64,000 nucleotides of DNA from positions 496,001 to 560,000 of the forward strand of contig NZ_JAXIVS010000003.1 in the NCBI RefSeq assembly GCF_034259325.1, in the 5' to 3' direction. The stretch comes from Hyalangium ruber (GTDB lineage Bacteria > Myxococcota > Myxococcia > Myxococcales > Myxococcaceae). Shown piece after piece: positions 16,674 to 23,776 of this stretch (position 1 is its first letter; each line of letters starts with the position of its first letter). The translations under genes and the position numbers were made by a program. The notes beneath the pieces are model-generated. The model did not search any database. It was not told the DNA's origin and saw nothing but the letters and a program-made list of their open reading frames with translations.

Positions 16674-17630
16674 TCACTGGGTGGGCACGGGCGCCTCGGC
16701 TCCCGTGGGCAATGTCGCGGGTTGACCTTCCGGGCGGGTCTTCCACCGCTGGTGCATCCACACCCACTGCTCGGGGGTGCGGCGGATGGCCGTCTCGATG
16801 CAGCGCGAGAGGGTGGCCGTCAGCGCCAGCGCCGCCGCCTCCCGGTCCTCCTCGGCGGGTGGGGAGACCTCCTCCATGGTGAGCCGGTAGCCCGGGCCCT
16901 CGCGGTGGCAGAAGCCCACCACCACGGCGGCGCCAGTGCGCAGGGCCAGGTCCGCGGCGGCCCGAGGCGTGGCAGCCAGCTCTCCGAAGAAGGGGACGAA
17001 GAAGGACTGCACCTTGGTGTCCTGGTCGATGAGCAGGCCGAGGATTTCGCCGTTCTTCAGCGCCCGGAGCATGTGCCGCACCGCGCCGTCCTGGCCGCGC
17101 CAGATGCTGCGCACCCCGCCCCGCTCCCGGAAGCGCCCCACGAGCGCGGTGAGGCGCGGGTCCGAGGTCTCCTTGGCGATGCTCTGGCAGGGGAAGCCCT
17201 CGGAGGCCACGCGCCGGGCCAGCAGCTCCCAGTTGCCCACATGGCCGGAGACGAACACCACGCCCTTGCCCCGGGCGAGCGCCGCTTCCAGAACGCGCCG
17301 GTCCGCCTCGGGCCAGGCCACCAGCGGCTTGAGCTCCTGGTCGAGCGCGGCGGTGCAGCCCACCTCGAAGAGGGCGGCGCCCAGGTGGCGGAAGGAGGCG
17401 CGGGCCAGGGCGAGCCGCTCGGCCTCGGACTTCTCCGGGAAGGCCCGGGCGAGGGACTTGAGCGCCTTGCGCCGCTCGCCGCCGGCCACGAGGAAGGCGA
17501 GTGTCCCGAAGCGCACACCCAGCCACCGCGCCAGCCCGAGGGGAAGTGGGTGGACGAGGGCCAACGCGGCCCGCACGAGCAGGTAGCGGAGGAAACGCTT
17601 GAGCCGCTTTGCTAAGGGTGGGCGCTCCAC
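16674..17630 (-). CDS. Lipid A biosynthesis acyltransferase (LpxL/HtrB family)
   Basis: About 318 residues. The catalytic H-x4-E motif is in VFVSGHVGNWE; DQDTKVQSFFVPFFGE, the family's second conserved block, follows. Members transfer a secondary acyl chain from acyl-ACP to lipid A at the inner membrane; the N-terminus has one hydrophobic segment (LRYLLVRAALALVHPLPLG). The start is uncertain: GTG 17630 is used here, a TTG at 17651 is possible. It leads the lptCAB genes and is divergent from astB with only about 20 bp between. Confidence 0.85.
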   Translation of the reverse strand: MERPPLAKRLKRFLRYLLVRAALALVHPLPLGLARWLGVRFGTLAFLVAGGERRKALKSLARAFPEKSEAERLALARASFRHLGAALFEVGCTAALDQELKPLVAWPEADRRVLEAALARGKGVVFVSGHVGNWELLARRVASEGFPCQSIAKETSDPRLTALVGRFRERGGVRSIWRGQDGAVRHMLRALKNGEILGLLIDQDTKVQSFFVPFFGELAATPRAAADLALRTGAAVVVGFCHREGPGYRLTMEEVSPPAEEDREAAALALTATLSRCIETAIRRTPEQWVWMHQRWKTRPEGQPATLPTGAEAPVPTQ

Positions 17631-17650
17631 AGCAGCGGTTCTATATCCCA

Positions 17651-18973
17651 ATGCGCGAGTACAACTTCGACGGTCTCGTTGGCCCCACCCACAATTATGG
17701 TGGCCTCTCGGTCGGCAACCTGGCTTCCACCACCCATGGGGGCCAGGCCAGCTATCCCCGCGAGGCGGCGCTCCAGGGCCTGGAGAAGATGCGCTTCGTC
17801 TCGGGGCTGGGGGTGGGCCAGGCGGTGCTGCCGCCTCAGCCGCGCCCCTCGCTGAAGACGCTGCGGTTGCTGGGCTTCAGCGGCACGGACGAGGAGGTCA
17901 TCACCCGCGCCGCCCGGGAGGCCGAGCACCTGCTGCGGCTCACCTCCAGCGCCGCCGCGATGTGGACGGCCAACGCCGCCACCGTGGCGCCCTCGGAGGA
18001 CACGGCGGACAAGCGGCTGCACCTGACGCCCGCCAACCTCCAGCAGATGTTCCACCGGGCCATCGAGGCGGAGACGACGCACTCGGTGCTGCGCGCCATC
18101 TTCGCGGACGAGGCGCGGTTCGCCGTCCACGCTCCCCTGCCCGGCGGAGGGCACTTCGCCGATGAGGGGGCGGCCAACCACACCCGCCTCGTGACGCCCG
18201 GGCACGCCGCGGTACACCTGCTGGCGTGGGGGCGCAGCCCGTGGAAGGACATTGTCGGGCCCAAGCGCTTCCCGGCGCGGCAGACGCTGGAGGCCAGCCA
18301 GGCGCTCGCGCGGCTGCACCAGTTGGACCCGGAGCGCACCCTGTTCCCCCAGCAACACCCGGAGGGCATCGACTCGGGAGCCTTCCACACGGACGTGGTG
18401 GCGGTGGGCAATGGCAGCTTCCTGATGCTGCACGAGCTGGCGTTCGCGGACGCGCCAGGCCTGCTGCGCACGCTGCGGGAGAAGCTGGGCGAGGGGTTCA
18501 CCTCCATCACGGCCACCGAGGCGGAGCTGCCGGTGAAGGACGCGGTGAAGTCGTACCCGTTCAACTCGCAGGTGCTCACCTTGCCGGACGGCGGCATGGC
18601 CATCGTGGCCCCGGTGGAGTGCCAGGAGACGGAGACGGCGCGGCGCTTCCTCGAGCGTGTGGTAGCCGAGAACAACCCGGTGAAGCGGGTGCATTACCTG
18701 GACGTGCGCCAGTCGATGAACAACGGCGGCGGCCCGGCGTGCCTGCGCCAGCGCATCTGGCTCACGGAGGAGGAGCGGGCCGCGGTGAAGGCCAACGTCT
18801 TCTACTCCCCTGCCCTACACGAGTCGCTCGCCGCCTGGGTGAGGAAGCATTACCGGGAGACGATGTACGCGAAGGATCTGCAGGATCCGAAGCTCGCGCG
18901 GGAGACGATGACGGCGCTCGATGAGCTGACGGGCATCCTCCAGCTCGGCAGCGTTTACGACTTCCAGCGCTGA
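17651..18973 (+). CDS. astB: N-succinylarginine dihydrolase
   Basis: 440 residues; hydrolyses N2-succinylarginine to succinylornithine, CO2 and ammonia in the arginine succinyltransferase (AST) pathway. It opens with YNFDGLVGPTHNYGGLSVGN, diagnostic of AstB. The catalytic Cys is C364 in NNGGGPACLRQR. Length matches the family. Other ast genes are not in the window, so either they lie elsewhere or the enzyme works outside a full AST pathway. The ATG 17651 start matches the family N-terminus; no strong ribosome site is seen. Confidence 0.95.
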   Translation: MREYNFDGLVGPTHNYGGLSVGNLASTTHGGQASYPREAALQGLEKMRFVSGLGVGQAVLPPQPRPSLKTLRLLGFSGTDEEVITRAAREAEHLLRLTSSAAAMWTANAATVAPSEDTADKRLHLTPANLQQMFHRAIEAETTHSVLRAIFADEARFAVHAPLPGGGHFADEGAANHTRLVTPGHAAVHLLAWGRSPWKDIVGPKRFPARQTLEASQALARLHQLDPERTLFPQQHPEGIDSGAFHTDVVAVGNGSFLMLHELAFADAPGLLRTLREKLGEGFTSITATEAELPVKDAVKSYPFNSQVLTLPDGGMAIVAPVECQETETARRFLERVVAENNPVKRVHYLDVRQSMNNGGGPACLRQRIWLTEEERAAVKANVFYSPALHESLAAWVRKHYRETMYAKDLQDPKLARETMTALDELTGILQLGSVYDFQR

Positions 18974-18991
18974 GACGCATGTCCGGCCGCC

Positions 18992-19012
18992 CCCCGAGGC
19001 ACACGCTCGGGG
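18992..19012 (+). terminator. Stem-loop terminator after astB
   Basis: A perfect 7-bp inverted repeat CCCCGAG / CTCGGGG with a 7-base loop, 18 bp after the astB stop. No U-run. It sits between astB and the small membrane peptide gene. Confidence 0.5.
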
Positions 19013-19034
19013 CTGGTGGCCTGAACGGTGGAGC

Positions 19035-19066
19035 TGACGCACCTTTTCAGGAGAGGAGGTGCGTCA
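19035..19066 (+). promoter_or_regulatory. Hairpin occluding a start codon
   Basis: TGACGCACCT (19035-19044) pairs perfectly with AGGTGCGTCA (19057-19066). The 3' arm covers the end of the Shine-Dalgarno AGGAGG (19054-19059) and the A of the ATG at 19066. The 12-base loop carries the rest of the ribosome site. Such a fold would lower translation of the 30-residue peptide unless opened. Seen in sequence; the regulatory role is inference. Confidence 0.6.
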
Positions 19067-19158
19067 TGGGCGACGCGGGATTCCTGACCTTGATCATGGT
19101 GCTGGCCGTCATCTGGTACGCCTCGATGCGGATGCACATGCCCCACCTGCACCACTGA
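19066..19158 (+). CDS. 30-residue membrane peptide with His/Met tail
   Basis: A complete 30-codon ORF. Residues 5-18 (GFLTLIMVLAVIWY) form one membrane segment, and the tail ASMRMHMPHLHH holds three Met and three His within its last ten residues. The ribosome site GAGAGGAGG is very strong, ten bases or fewer from ATG. The tail looks able to bind a soft or borderline metal (Cu, Ni, Zn); that is inference. No family is recognised. It could be a regulator or subunit of a membrane complex. It lies between astB and, convergently, the SUKH immunity gene. Confidence 0.6.
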   Translation: MGDAGFLTLIMVLAVIWYASMRMHMPHLHH

Positions 19159-19178
19159 GCGCCGAGCTCAAGGCACGC

Positions 19179-19628
19179 TCAGTCGTGCAGGCCCGCCAGG
19201 AAGTCCGAGAAGCTTTCCGCCAGCGGATAGAGATCGCACTCGACCGAGACGAGGACAATCCGAGGAGGGAGGGAACCCTCCCTGTAGTCGAAGCACACGG
19301 ACTCGCCCCCGGGAGTCGAGGCGAACGGATAGATCCCCTTGGGAACATGCGGCTTCAAGGCTTGATAGACGCCAAGCGCCAGGTATCCCTCCCGCCCCTC
19401 GTCCCGGGTGACGGTCAGCAGTTCGTTGATTGCGCTTTCCGATGTCGCGCCAACGCTGAAGACATTGGGCTGAGGTGTCATGCCTTGGTACTCGCTCACC
19501 AGTTCCTTGTACTCTTTGGGGAGAGTGACACCCCACTCCCGCTCGAGCGCCTCGATTTCATGAGGCTTCGCGGCTCGGGGCTCACCCCAGACGTAAGGCC
19601 GCCAGACGATCTCGCGGTTCCGCGTCAT
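19179..19628 (-). CDS. SMI1/KNR4 (SUKH) family immunity protein
   Basis: 149 residues. SUKH-type core: AKPHEIEALEREWGVTLPKE, then YKELVSEYQGMTP; and near the end PFASTPGGESVCFDYREGS and LAESFSDFLAGL. SUKH proteins commonly neutralise nuclease toxins encoded next to them. The start ATG 19628 overlaps the stop of the toxin gene (ATGA), so the two are translated together. It is the likely cognate immunity factor of the WHH nuclease lipoprotein. Confidence 0.88.
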   Translation of the reverse strand: MTRNREIVWRPYVWGEPRAAKPHEIEALEREWGVTLPKEYKELVSEYQGMTPQPNVFSVGATSESAINELLTVTRDEGREGYLALGVYQALKPHVPKGIYPFASTPGGESVCFDYREGSLPPRIVLVSVECDLYPLAESFSDFLAGLHD

Positions 19629-21139
19629 CTCGGGTATCCCCCGCCCCAGATCGCCATGCCGCCCGTATGAGGAATGGAGAGCCGGTGCTCCCCCTCTAGG
19701 ATGAGCTGCATGCGCCCGACGTCCTGATGGTGATGCCACCTGTAGCCAGCTGGCGCCGTATTCAACGTGGGGAGCGTGCCAGCCTCGGCTCCGGTGAACC
19801 CCAACTGTTTCGCAAGCCCTGAATCCTGTTGGATGGCTTGGGAGAGCCTCTCATTCGCGGCCCTGAAGTGCGCCTGGGGCTTCCCAGTCCCTATATGCAC
19901 ATCGTCGATCAGGGTTTCGAACTTCGGCTCGAACTCTGGGAATCCATCCTTGTCGAAGCGGAGGGTGTTCCTGCCGTCAGTCATCGTCTGCCCTGCGCGG
20001 TTCCTTCCCAGGTTCGGAATAAGAGTTGGAGGCTCCCGCGTCCGCTTGAAGGGCAGAATCTGTCCCTCCTCGGTCAAGCGGGGCTTACGCCAGGACTCGA
20101 TGGAACTCAGCCGGTACTTCGCGGGAGAGGGCGTGCCTTGGCCTCTACCACTCATGCCCTGGTGGGTCATGGCCAGAGCGTTGGGCGCCATGGAGACAGT
20201 CAGGATACGGCCCGTCACCTTGACGGTATGCACCTGCCCCACCGCTGATAGCACCAGGCCGCTCTCCGTCGCCGCCATGCGCGAGGCCTGGGTAAAACCC
20301 GGCAGGTTCATCCCCCCCAAAGCCTTGCCCCCCGCGGAGCCCAGGGCCGCTGTGGCGACCATGAGCAGCAGCCGAGTGACTTTCTCCCCCATGACCCGTC
20401 CATAGCGCTCACCCGCCTCGCGAAGTTCAGAGAAGGTGCGCGCCTGCCTTGCCTCTCGGTCCATGCGCCTCCAGCCTTCGATGAGGCTGACCACCGTGTC
20501 CCAGCCCAGGTAAGCCACCAGGGTCACGGTCAGCGCCAGAACGAACGCCTTGGAGATCGGCTCCGGTAGCACCAGCAGCGTCATGGCCATGGCGATCGAG
20601 CTCACCAGGGCCACTCTCAGTTGGGCAGGATCGAGCACCTCGCCCACGACGGCGGTGGTGCCCTCCCAGACGCCTGCTGAAGCCAAGGCGAAGGCCAGCT
20701 CTCGCTTCGCTTCATCGGTGAGATAGGGCCGGCCCTCGAGCAGGCTTGCGCAGTCACCAGGGGTACCTTGGCGCTCGCACCATTGGAGGTATTCGCCAAC
20801 CAGCGCAGCCCGTCCATCAGCCTGTCCGGGACGTCCCCAGGCGATGATGGCGAGTTGCTTCGTGGGCCGAGGAGGCAACATCTCCCGAAGCTCCCGAGCG
20901 AGCCGTACCATCGCCGCCTCGTACTCGGCTTGGGTCACCTCGACGGGAGCACGTCGGAGAGAAGGCCGCAGGACGCGTGGTGCGCCGTTGTCTGGATACA
21001 AGACGATGCGCGAACCTGTGTCCGTTGCATCTCCGCTTGTAGGCCGCCCGCTGTCCGTGGCGCAGGATGTGGCCAAGAGAACCCAGGCAAGCACAACGTA
21101 CCTACGCAGGTGCAAGCCCCTCGTCGCCTCCAAGGCCAT
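19625..21139 (-). CDS. SitA-like lipoprotein toxin with WHH nuclease domain
   Basis: 504 residues. The signal peptide ends in lipobox LATSC. The middle has hydrophobic segments (about 190-240 and 265-290) with PEPISKAF and ERYGRVMGEKVTRLLLMVAT, matching the lipoprotein at 5088-6467. The C-terminus carries the nuclease motif GYRWHHHQDVGRMQLI followed by HTGGMAIWGGG, the WHH group of HNH/ENDO VII endonuclease toxins. A SUKH gene overlaps its stop. Together this is a toxin-immunity pair; delivery by TraAB-dependent outer-membrane exchange, as for SitA, is inference. ATG 21139 puts the signal peptide in place. Confidence 0.85.
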   Translation of the reverse strand: MALEATRGLHLRRYVVLAWVLLATSCATDSGRPTSGDATDTGSRIVLYPDNGAPRVLRPSLRRAPVEVTQAEYEAAMVRLARELREMLPPRPTKQLAIIAWGRPGQADGRAALVGEYLQWCERQGTPGDCASLLEGRPYLTDEAKRELAFALASAGVWEGTTAVVGEVLDPAQLRVALVSSIAMAMTLLVLPEPISKAFVLALTVTLVAYLGWDTVVSLIEGWRRMDREARQARTFSELREAGERYGRVMGEKVTRLLLMVATAALGSAGGKALGGMNLPGFTQASRMAATESGLVLSAVGQVHTVKVTGRILTVSMAPNALAMTHQGMSGRGQGTPSPAKYRLSSIESWRKPRLTEEGQILPFKRTREPPTLIPNLGRNRAGQTMTDGRNTLRFDKDGFPEFEPKFETLIDDVHIGTGKPQAHFRAANERLSQAIQQDSGLAKQLGFTGAEAGTLPTLNTAPAGYRWHHHQDVGRMQLILEGEHRLSIPHTGGMAIWGGGYPR

Positions 21140-21157: not shown

Positions 21158-23776
21158 CTACGGGCTTTCGGAGCGGGTCCGCAGCAACTGCTCCACGTCC
21201 TGCTTGCCGGGATCCTCCATCAGCTGCTGCCGGTGCGCCTCCAGCAACCGCTTCTCCTCGGCCTCCAGGCGCTCCAGCCATGCCTCCCCCGCGCTTCGCG
21301 ACCCCTCAGGCTGGAGCTGCAGCCCCTTGCGTACAGCCCTCGCCGCGTCGCCCGGGCGGCGCAAGGCCTCCTGGAGCCGCGCCACCTGGAAGTGGGCCTC
21401 GGGAGCGGGCTCGAGCCGCGACACCGTCACGTAGCGCTCCAGTGCCCGTCCGAGCAGGCCGTCCCGCTCGAAGCACGCGCCCTCCAGCGCCAGCAACCGG
21501 GCCCGCTGCCGGTAGTCCGTCACGAAGCGACTGGACTGGTTCAGCACCTCTCGCGCCCGCCGCGTCAGCCCCGTGTCCAGCAGCTGGCTTGCCAGCGCGA
21601 ACGACATCTCCAGGTTGCCCGGAAAGCGAGGCAGGCTCTGCTCGAGGAGCTGGATGGCATCCTCGCGCCGTCCTTGTGCCCGGAGGATCTCCGCCCGCAG
21701 CAGCACCGGCTGCGGTGCCGCCGGAGCCCGGAGTTCGATCTCGGCACACAGCGCCTCCGCCACCCCCAGCTCACCGCGTCCCACGCGCATGCGCGCCTCG
21801 AGCTCCCAGAGCGCGAACACCCCAGGCGCCGCGTCGAAGCGCTCCCGGGCCCAGGCGAGCCAGTCCAGGGCCTGCTCCTGTCGCCCGGGCCGCGAAGCCA
21901 GCGCCAGCGCCAGCTGCGCCACCACCGTCGCGGAGTCCGGAGTGAGCGCCCGAAGCTCCTCCACGGTGCGTGTCTGCTCCAGGGCCTCACGCACCAACAC
22001 GCTCTCGTCTCCCGACTCGTGGGCGAACCGGTACTCCAGGAAGGCCTGGCCGCGACGCCCCAGCGCCAGCAACGCGCGCGCGGCGATGCGGTGCGAGGCC
22101 GTATCCGTCGGCCGCAGGTAGAGCGCTCGGTTGATGAAGGCGAGCGCTTCGCCCGCATTCGCCTGGCCCCCCGTGGCATACGCCGAGCCCACGAGGCCAT
22201 AGAGCAGGTAGTCCGACGGGTGCCGGTCGATGAGCCCCAACGCCCGTCCACGCACCTCCGCCAGCGGCGCCCGGGCGTGAACGAGTCCCGCAAGCTCCGC
22301 CTCCGCCGCCATCAACGTGTGCCGCCCTGGCACCAGCGCCACCAGCGCCACCACCGCCACCACCGCGGCCATGCCCATCCCGCGCGTGGCAGGCAGCCTC
22401 CACGTCCACCGTGGCGAGCCAGAAGCCTCACGCTCCTCCGGCCGAGCCACCGTGGCGAGCGCCACCCACGCGGCCACCGCGCACGCGGGCAGCTCCAGGC
22501 TGAAGTCAAAGAGGTTGTGCAGCCCCAACGCCAGCACCGCCGCGAGCACCGCCAGCTCCAAGCGCCCCAGCCGTGCTCCGCGCATCAGCCGCGTGAAGCC
22601 CCAGATGCCTACCGCCAGCAGCACCAGGCCCAGCACGCCGAACTCGGCCCCCAGCTGCAGCACCGCGTTCTCCGGATGCGTGAGGGTGTTGGGGTTGAGC
22701 GCCGTCTGGTAGCGCGGGAAGGCGGCCTCGAAGGCCCCACGCCCCATGCCCAACACCGGGAAGGAGCGCGCGGCCTCGGCCATCATCGGCCACAGGTCCA
22801 CCTTGCTGTGGCGCAGCTTCTCCACGCTGTCCACGCTGGCCGCCTCCGCCACCAGCTTCTCCCACGCCACATAGCCGCCCACCGCCAGCGTCGCGCCGAG
22901 CACGAGCAGGGCGAGCGGCCCCCGGCTCCAGGGAGAGGGCACCCGCTCCTCCTCCTCCTCGTCCCGCCGCTTCGCGCGCCGGCGCAACAGCCACACCGCC
23001 AGCACCCCCTGGCCGAAGAGGAAGAAGAGGATGCCCGCGCGCGAGAGCGAGAGCAGCACCCCGGCGCCCGACAGCAGCGCCGCCACCGCGAAGAGCACCG
23101 TGCGCTCGCGACGCGCGCTGGAGAGCATCAGGCCCAGCCCCACCGTGGCCGACAACGTCAGGAAGCCCGCCAGGTGGTTGGGGTTGCCGAACGGCGTCAC
23201 CAGCGGCGGCCGCGCGTGGGTGTAGCTCCGCAGGCCCACCAGCTCCGTGAGCCCCAGCAGCGAGTGCAGCAACCCCAGCAGCGTCACCGCCGCCCCGGTG
23301 AAGGCCAGCGTGGAGAGCAGCCGCTGCCGCGAGCGCCGCGAGCGGCACACCTCCACCGCCGAGAGGAAGGCCAGCACATAGGCCAGGTGCTTGGCGAGCT
23401 CCCGCCACGTGGCCGGCGGATCCAGGGACACGGGCCTCGCGGACGACAGGCCCAGGGGAACGAGCGCGAACTCCCGCAGCGCGGCGGCCTCGGGGCTCAC
23501 TACCGCGAGCAGCGCCGGAGGGAGCGGGATGAGCTGCAGCAGGCAAAGCACCGCGCTGGCCACCAGCGGCACCGCGAGCAACGGCACATGCAGCGAATGC
23601 CCCTGTCGCCGGGCCGCCTCCGCCGCCAGCACCGCCGCCAGGGCCGAGAGCCCCACCAGCGGCCAGAGCGCCCACGTCGCCGCGCCTCCGAGCGCCAGCG
23701 GCCCCGAGACGACGAGCCCCGCCAACACCGCTTCTGCGGCGATGCTGAACCGGGAGGTGCGGCGGGAGGAAGGCAT
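21158..23776 (-). CDS. O-antigen ligase/polymerase family protein with TPR domain
   Basis: 872 residues. The first ~450 hold 11-13 membrane segments and a large periplasmic loop with the Wzy_C/WaaL pattern (PFGNPNHLAGFL; LSLSRAG; later LTHPENAVLQLGAEFGVLGL). The last ~400 are helical TPR-like repeats (ALLALGRRGQAFLEYRFA, LLRAEILRAQGRREDAIQLL). Such proteins ligate or polymerise glycans at the periplasmic face of the inner membrane. The TPR half may bind partner proteins. It ends just upstream of the toxin gene on the same strand. UDP-glucose dehydrogenase follows about 1 kb away and fits an exopolysaccharide role. Confidence 0.82.
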   Translation of the reverse strand: MPSSRRTSRFSIAAEAVLAGLVVSGPLALGGAATWALWPLVGLSALAAVLAAEAARRQGHSLHVPLLAVPLVASAVLCLLQLIPLPPALLAVVSPEAAALREFALVPLGLSSARPVSLDPPATWRELAKHLAYVLAFLSAVEVCRSRRSRQRLLSTLAFTGAAVTLLGLLHSLLGLTELVGLRSYTHARPPLVTPFGNPNHLAGFLTLSATVGLGLMLSSARRERTVLFAVAALLSGAGVLLSLSRAGILFFLFGQGVLAVWLLRRRAKRRDEEEEERVPSPWSRGPLALLVLGATLAVGGYVAWEKLVAEAASVDSVEKLRHSKVDLWPMMAEAARSFPVLGMGRGAFEAAFPRYQTALNPNTLTHPENAVLQLGAEFGVLGLVLLAVGIWGFTRLMRGARLGRLELAVLAAVLALGLHNLFDFSLELPACAVAAWVALATVARPEEREASGSPRWTWRLPATRGMGMAAVVAVVALVALVPGRHTLMAAEAELAGLVHARAPLAEVRGRALGLIDRHPSDYLLYGLVGSAYATGGQANAGEALAFINRALYLRPTDTASHRIAARALLALGRRGQAFLEYRFAHESGDESVLVREALEQTRTVEELRALTPDSATVVAQLALALASRPGRQEQALDWLAWARERFDAAPGVFALWELEARMRVGRGELGVAEALCAEIELRAPAAPQPVLLRAEILRAQGRREDAIQLLEQSLPRFPGNLEMSFALASQLLDTGLTRRAREVLNQSSRFVTDYRQRARLLALEGACFERDGLLGRALERYVTVSRLEPAPEAHFQVARLQEALRRPGDAARAVRKGLQLQPEGSRSAGEAWLERLEAEEKRLLEAHRQQLMEDPGKQDVEQLLRTRSESP

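Follow-up and report, generated by a model that had tools for sequence, protein, structure and literature searches.

Does the perfect hairpin behind the astB gene of Hyalangium ruber control the translation of a hidden 30-residue membrane peptide, as was proposed in the original prediction for this locus? The question was examined in a window of 64,000 nt, that is, the whole stretch of DNA analysed (NZ_JAXIVS010000003.1, positions 496,001 to 560,000), and all coordinates given below are those of this window. Downstream of astB lie an initial hairpin, then the hairpin that carries the Shine-Dalgarno (SD) sequence, and the ORF, followed on the opposite strand by a SUKH-1 gene, a nuclease-domain gene and an O-antigen ligase gene. 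The features are as follows.

17609-18973, plus strand: astB (N-succinylarginine dihydrolase), the upstream neighbour; NCBIfam TIGR03241 arg_catab_astB, 582.9 bits against a cut-off of 538.3.
18985-19021, plus strand: predicted hairpin, the first one past astB, lacking a T run; by folding, with no terminator-like site.
19016-19045, plus strand: bipartite conserved element GTGGCC-N18-CACCTT (TGGCCT, 17 nt, CACCTT), promoter-like by gap statistics.
19035-19066, plus strand: predicted SD-masking stem-loop with arms 19035-19044 and 19057-19066; match to the covariance model R1 (described below) at 19018-19067.
19054-19061, plus strand: Shine-Dalgarno sequence AGGAGGTG, from the sequence.
19066-19158, plus strand: orphan ORF of 30 aa, with a single membrane-like segment and an end rich in His and Met; from the ORF list, coding score and hydropathy.
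19179-19628, minus strand: SUKH-1 (SMI1_KNR4) immunity-like gene, apparently in place of a lost tRNA_edit gene; Pfam PF09346, E 2.4e-19.
19625-21139, minus strand: gene for a 504-aa protein with a C-terminal colicin-DNase/WHH nuclease domain; PF12639, E 2.1e-16, and PF14414, E 5.7e-13.
21158-23776, minus strand: O-antigen ligase (Wzy_C) gene, in relatives the convergent neighbour of tRNA_edit; PF04932, E 1.4e-20, and tblastn.

Our answer is that the feature is real and is most probably to be re-explained as an orphaned leader, now followed by a new and perhaps translated microprotein. Direct reading of the sequence gave TGACGCACCT for 19035-19044 and AGGTGCGTCA for 19057-19066, which are perfectly complementary and make a stem of 10 bp. 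The A of the ATG at 19066-19068 (A19066) is paired within the 3' arm of this stem, the full SD AGGAGGTG is enclosed by it, and the AGGAGG is 6 nt from the ATG. Both the perfect hairpin and the very strong ribosome site inside it were thus predicted correctly. By folding of 61 nt, an energy of -31.2 kcal/mol was obtained (z -5.3), and none of 200 shuffled sequences was equally stable; the 51-nt fold of the window at 37 °C gave -25.0 kcal/mol. The pattern GCACCTT-N3-15-AGGAGGTGC occurs once in the genome (1 forward, 0 reverse), at this very site, against 1 and 1 for the control pattern. The looser pattern CACCT-N3-20-AGGAGGTG was found at 66 genome sites against 60 for its control, a chance level that rules out a genome-wide family of SD hairpins and indicates that the site belongs to no genome-wide class of starts. 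Rfam gave no match at the gathering score in the whole window and none up to E 5 in 18950-19200; control by metal or temperature, as suggested earlier, is unsupported, and no metal or thermosensor family of Rfam matches.

The ORF at 19066-19158 is translated as MGDAGFLTLIMVLAVIWYASMRMHMPHLHH. As an ATG further upstream, at 18979, already opens the same frame (59 aa), the choice of 19066 as the start rests on its SD. The third-position GC content of the ORF is 0.97, and its coding score is +20 bits, compared with -37 to +8 in the other five frames. After adjustment for length, the score ranked third among 125 ATG ORFs of 25-36 aa; it was the highest among the 19 ATG ORFs of this size outside the presumed genes (47 ORFs chosen by length and codon-position GC), and exceeded 70% of 583 genic 30-codon windows. 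A single stretch of the peptide is membrane-like: the N-terminal 19 residues, with a best 19-residue Kyte-Doolittle mean of 1.77. Its proposed metal-binding tail amounts to composition, a His/Met-rich end.

Relatives of the peptide were sought at several distances. No credible one was found in 95 other genomes of the family, where nine weak matches (E 0.555-6.45) were detected in eight other genomes, within open frames of 100-1307 aa; none of the nine has an SD and a start codon at the match position, and one, in locus L034, is cut by a contig end, leaving its placement unsure. The genomes of five neighbours (H. versicolor, two Archangium and two MAGs) contained no credible relative, the plasmid search gave no match, and the Pfam search reached no cut-off (best DUF3149, E 0.018). 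In the phylum (194 other genomes, some of them shared with the family set), no credible relative was detected at E<=0.5; of the two other matches in this search, the better one (E 0.003) contains a stop. These weak matches were rejected as homologues. Distant relatives may exist, as searches of this kind readily overlook short hydrophobic peptides. The idea of a hidden single-pass membrane peptide is upheld with respect to the coding-like codons and the membrane-like stretch, whereas the conservation by which it was to be checked was not found in family, neighbour or phylum genomes. Translation of 19066-19158 seems somewhat more probable than its absence, and the ORF, as judged from its sequence, is likely to be read from the strong SD, giving a membrane peptide with one pass and of recent, orphan origin. 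Either a young orphan gene has captured a start module here, or the 30 codons are accidental and follow a relic leader.

The neighbourhood of astB was compared among relatives. The window AstB groups with that of Hyalangium versicolor (91% identity, support 95/92 in a tree of 21 rows); the window genome, of 10.77 Mb, is the sole member of its genus among the 96 family genomes compared. Downstream of astB, a tRNA_edit gene (PF04073, E 1.7e-23), which we take to be of the YbaK/ProX type, is located in 22 of 34 named astB loci, and in all 22 the O-antigen ligase gene lies beyond it on the opposite strand. One further locus, L065, has the ligase and lacks tRNA_edit. This order of astB, tRNA_edit and ligase in relatives indicates that tRNA_edit stands where the window has the ORF and the toxin/SUKH pair. 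In two genomes of the group taken for Archangium (G007 and G027), tRNA_edit is directly behind astB; the genus names given to G-numbered genomes were deduced from coordinates that they share with named loci. In three M. xanthus-like loci (L045, L048 and L069), about 1.6-1.7 kb separates the two genes, filled by reverse-strand frames in L045 and L069, the two loci printed; the leader at these places stayed with tRNA_edit (leaders G101 and G113, at the places of L134 and L135). Matches to the tRNA_edit protein at E<=1e-15 were found in 59 of the 96 family genomes, and in the window genome there was no relative at E<=1e-5.

Some observations on these loci stand apart. Locus L045 (BNCN01000002.1) is titled Comamonas sp. 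KCTC 72670, while the tree groups its AstB with Myxococcus xanthus and its gene order is that of M. xanthus; the record is probably mislabelled. A second tRNA_edit copy in one genome (G090:C111:162267-162776) has a TAG inside the match and may be broken. On the minus strand of the window, 19179-21139 holds the SUKH-1 and nuclease-domain pair at the position of the relatives' tRNA_edit, and from its gene content looks like an insertion site of polymorphic toxins. The ORF was also considered as a part of this toxin/SUKH cassette; this was rejected, as no other SUKH locus appeared among the best 30 peptide matches against all loci. For SUKH, 42 matches were obtained, 30 of which gave loci, including the window's own, and 160 nt past the 3' end were read in the other 29. 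Four of these loci, from two genera (L231, L233, L240 and L249), share a near-identical short flank ...CCGCCGCTTCCAGTAGAGTTTCAGTC just past the 3' end of SUKH, which looks like the 3' end of a tRNA and may be the mark of an integration site. At the place of the 18985-19021 hairpin behind astB, inverted repeats of different sequence were seen by eye in L010 and in Corallococcus loci; this first hairpin may be an end signal of astB that lacks a T run.

The leader of the tRNA_edit gene was then characterized across the family. The 77 tRNA_edit matches gave 70 leaders that were read, the seven not fetched being second copies. Among the 59 family genomes in which the tRNA_edit gene occurs, 51 carry the core CAC[CT]TT, which faces the AGGTG of the SD, ahead of this SD; the eight leaders without it are G003, G008, G010, G012, G023, G028, G083 and G089. 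Exclusion of 11 second copies and these eight core-less leaders left 51, which make the 45 distinct rows of alignment A1, with the window kept out. The near-invariance of the core in A1 is partly by construction because only CAC[CT]TT leaders were aligned, and the fair figure is 51/59. From A1 we built the covariance model R1, in which the window takes no part. Within the window, the best match of R1 is at 19018-19067 (E 0.001; next, E 0.46). In the whole window genome, the same place was the best reported match (26.2 bits, E 0.168), the second, elsewhere, having 24.5 bits and E 0.388; under the stricter filters of this search, 57 of 15032 first-look candidates were scored. Within about 100 nt behind astB, the expectation derived from the genome search is near 1e-6, R1 E-values being rough. 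The window leader thus has the model match, the position behind astB, and TGG[TC]C and CAC[CT]TT 17 nt apart, and no tRNA_edit coding sequence follows it. Very probably, as sequence comparison suggests, it is descended from a tRNA_edit leader. Historically, the hairpin belongs to the tRNA_edit gene found behind astB in relatives and not to the peptide. The origin of the leader, its position and the replacement of the gene are strongly supported by these comparisons. No account of the tRNA_edit leader was found among the listings of the literature searches.

In the sister genus, neither the core nor the bipartite element was detected in 420 nt from the astB end in any of seven genomes, and the sequence behind astB differs among the seven except for two similar pairs. 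As the leader is absent behind astB in all seven, its retention in the window may be chance survival. Three weak R1 matches were found in sister-genus loci; the two in L291 (13.9 bits, E 0.15) and L288 (13.6 bits, E 0.18), located about 200 nt behind astB on the same strand, leave out the entire stem, 33 positions in the middle of the model, and match mainly at CCCATGAT. They were set aside as chance. Thirteen weaker R1 matches were read. At L211 (E 0.004), L212 and L213, an ATG at the R1 start position opens frames of 252, 228 and 177 aa. A few other genes, as at these three loci, may carry a similar leader according to the model match; the family was not extended to them.

Two kinds of signal were detected in this leader. 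The first is one of spacing: of 51 distinct flanks, the window's among them, 45 have a gap of 17 nt between TGG[TC]C and CAC[CT]TT, three have one of 16 nt, and the remaining three lack TGG[TC]C. This near-fixed gap looks like the geometry of -35 and -10 boxes, in which case the -10 region would be the 5' arm of the stem. In the same 51 flanks, the distance from CACCTT to GGTG is 9-14 nt, and that from CACCTT to the start is 19-27 nt. As a -10 box, CACCTT is poor by the consensus, and no sigma-70-like site was found by a scan at the leader. The bipartite motif gave 68 matches in six genomes against 127 for the control, without enrichment, which rules out a genome-wide class of promoters; in the window genome by itself the numbers were 17 and 11.

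For the second kind of signal, the predicted fold of many tRNA_edit leaders puts the SD in a two-part stem that reaches nearly to the start codon, and the SD lies in a predicted helix in leaders of Myxococcus, Corallococcus, Citreicoccus and Archangium type. The fold of several Corallococcus leaders is no better than that of shuffled sequences. Extension of the stem beyond the common 5 bp gave p 0.007 for the window and a combined p of 0.008 for six clade representatives, picked before their values were seen. Tested singly, four of 21 leaders had p < 0.05 (window, G096, G091 and G032), the window having the lowest value, and two Archangium-type leaders, G063 and G061, had p 0.50 and 0.97. In the inner helix, none of six pairs changed on both sides, so that no covariation was observed. 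In the 11-pair structure, three pairs (13 cells) changed on both sides; counts as high were reached in 15 of 500 shuffles for cells and in 215 of 500 for pairs, and further pair types were fewer than in shuffles. When outer strands were swapped among 34 distinct leaders, which are related sequences, 56 of 20000 permutations were as good; for diverse sets, the numbers were 1448 of 20000 with eight leaders and 7534 of 20000 with seven, the window left out. Support for the outer stem is modest.

How should the leader and the ORF be read from these data? It could be that the leader is a promoter with a strong SD and nothing else, CACCTT being kept as a DNA signal and its complementarity to the SD being incidental. 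The near-fixed gap (45/51), the inner helix without covariation, the swap result without the window (7534/20000) and the shuffle-like folds in Corallococcus agree with this reading, which is nevertheless doubtful, since 51 of 59 leaders retain a poor -10 box, no enrichment of the motif was seen (68 against 127), and the stem extends past 5 bp above chance both in the window and in the six clades combined. Conversely, the whole stem might be present in the native mRNA and be opened by a protein, a ligand, temperature or an upstream ribosome. Such a regulated switch fits the SD in a predicted helix in four types of leader, and the variable distance from the CACCTT end to GGTG (9-14 nt) suits an RNA better than a DNA-bound dimer; we judge it quite improbable, because Rfam gives no match, the window stem is very stable at 37 °C (-25.0 kcal/mol), and promoter-like spacing would place the transcription start inside the loop. 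Translation control by this structure, as proposed earlier, may hold, but a part of the conservation fits a promoter.

The inverted repeat is perfect, as an operator for a dimeric DNA-binding protein would be, yet its half-site spacing shifts by single bases among relatives, which would alter the helical phase, and its 3' half-site is the SD itself; this function is very improbable. A role in ending transcription, be it that of astB or that of the convergent SUKH gene, is hardly credible: a stable hairpin does lie between convergent genes, but terminator-like sites (a GC-rich stem with a T run) numbered zero on either strand in 18900-19300, and the relatives' element precedes a co-directional gene. 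With regard to the ORF, its 30 codons may be accidental, untranslated or without role, behind a leader that is a relic. That neither the 95 other genomes of the family nor the 194 of the phylum gave a credible relative, and that the leader is missing behind astB in 7/7 sister-genus genomes, speaks for such an accident; against it are a coding score above 70% of 583 genic windows and the best of 19 ORFs outside presumed genes, together with a stem perfect over 10 bp whose extension p is the lowest of 21 leaders. An accidental ORF is a serious possibility, if the less probable side of the question.

The reading that we prefer, with a probability evenly balanced, is that of an orphaned tRNA_edit leader now standing before the 30-aa ORF and masking read-through mRNA in the manner of T4 gene e. 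On strong comparative support, the segment 19016-19066, comprising promoter-like element, SD and hairpin, is the leader of a gene for aminoacyl-tRNA editing whose place in relatives is between astB and the O-antigen ligase gene. The coding part is missing from the window genome, where other DNA, including the nuclease-toxin/SUKH pair, is found instead; the leader is now followed by the 30-codon ORF, which would have captured a ready-made start signal. In the read-through mRNA from astB, the CACCT arm would pair with the SD and keep the ORF silent, whereas the mRNA from its own promoter would begin inside the loop and be translated, because a start at this point leaves out the 5' arm. The comparison shows the anatomy, whereas promoter activity, SD masking and translation of the ORF are what we infer, and the promoter and RNA-stem signals can both be true at once. 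That the locus carries a chromosomal start module whose 5' arm is also the -10 region, restricting translation of a gene beside an upstream unit to its own transcripts, and that this module survived its tRNA-editing gene and was taken over, at the insertion site of a toxin/immunity pair, by a new membrane peptide of 30 codons, is unlikely as a whole. If true, a small orphan gene can arise by inheriting the promoter and ribosome site of a displaced gene instead of new ones. Likewise, in the conserved leader of the Myxococcaceae tRNA-editing gene, the promoter and the SD mask may then share the same six bases, which is testable in M. xanthus DK1622. The conservation of this leader before the tRNA-editing gene is a more useful finding than the microprotein. 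To our knowledge, a promoter and an SD mask on common bases are known mainly from T4-type phages.

Comparison with known systems can be made at three levels. The window leader and the tRNA_edit leader of relatives are alike in the place behind astB, the bipartite spacing, CACCTT, the SD and the R1 match; they differ in that the window has the 30-aa ORF instead of the tRNA_edit coding sequence, a shorter spacing between SD and ATG, and a stem perfect over 10 bp. The peptide, known here from its sequence, resembles in size and in its single membrane-like segment small membrane proteins of the type of YohP, described as a bacterial small membrane protein of 27 aa (PMC7549839), and no relation is claimed. 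For T4 gene e and I-TevI, the accounts drawn on here describe a hairpin that masks the RBS in long transcripts and in no others; directly before the RBS, within the 5' strand of the fold, sits a late promoter, and short transcripts lack this 5' part (PMC3014915, PMC2988022). The window differs from T4 in lying on a bacterial chromosome and in having a putative promoter, and the likeness would be one of working, with no descent claimed. In both, the SD and the start region lie in a stable stem, which for the window is predicted; if the promoter-like element at its 5' arm is indeed a promoter, short transcripts would escape the masking here too.
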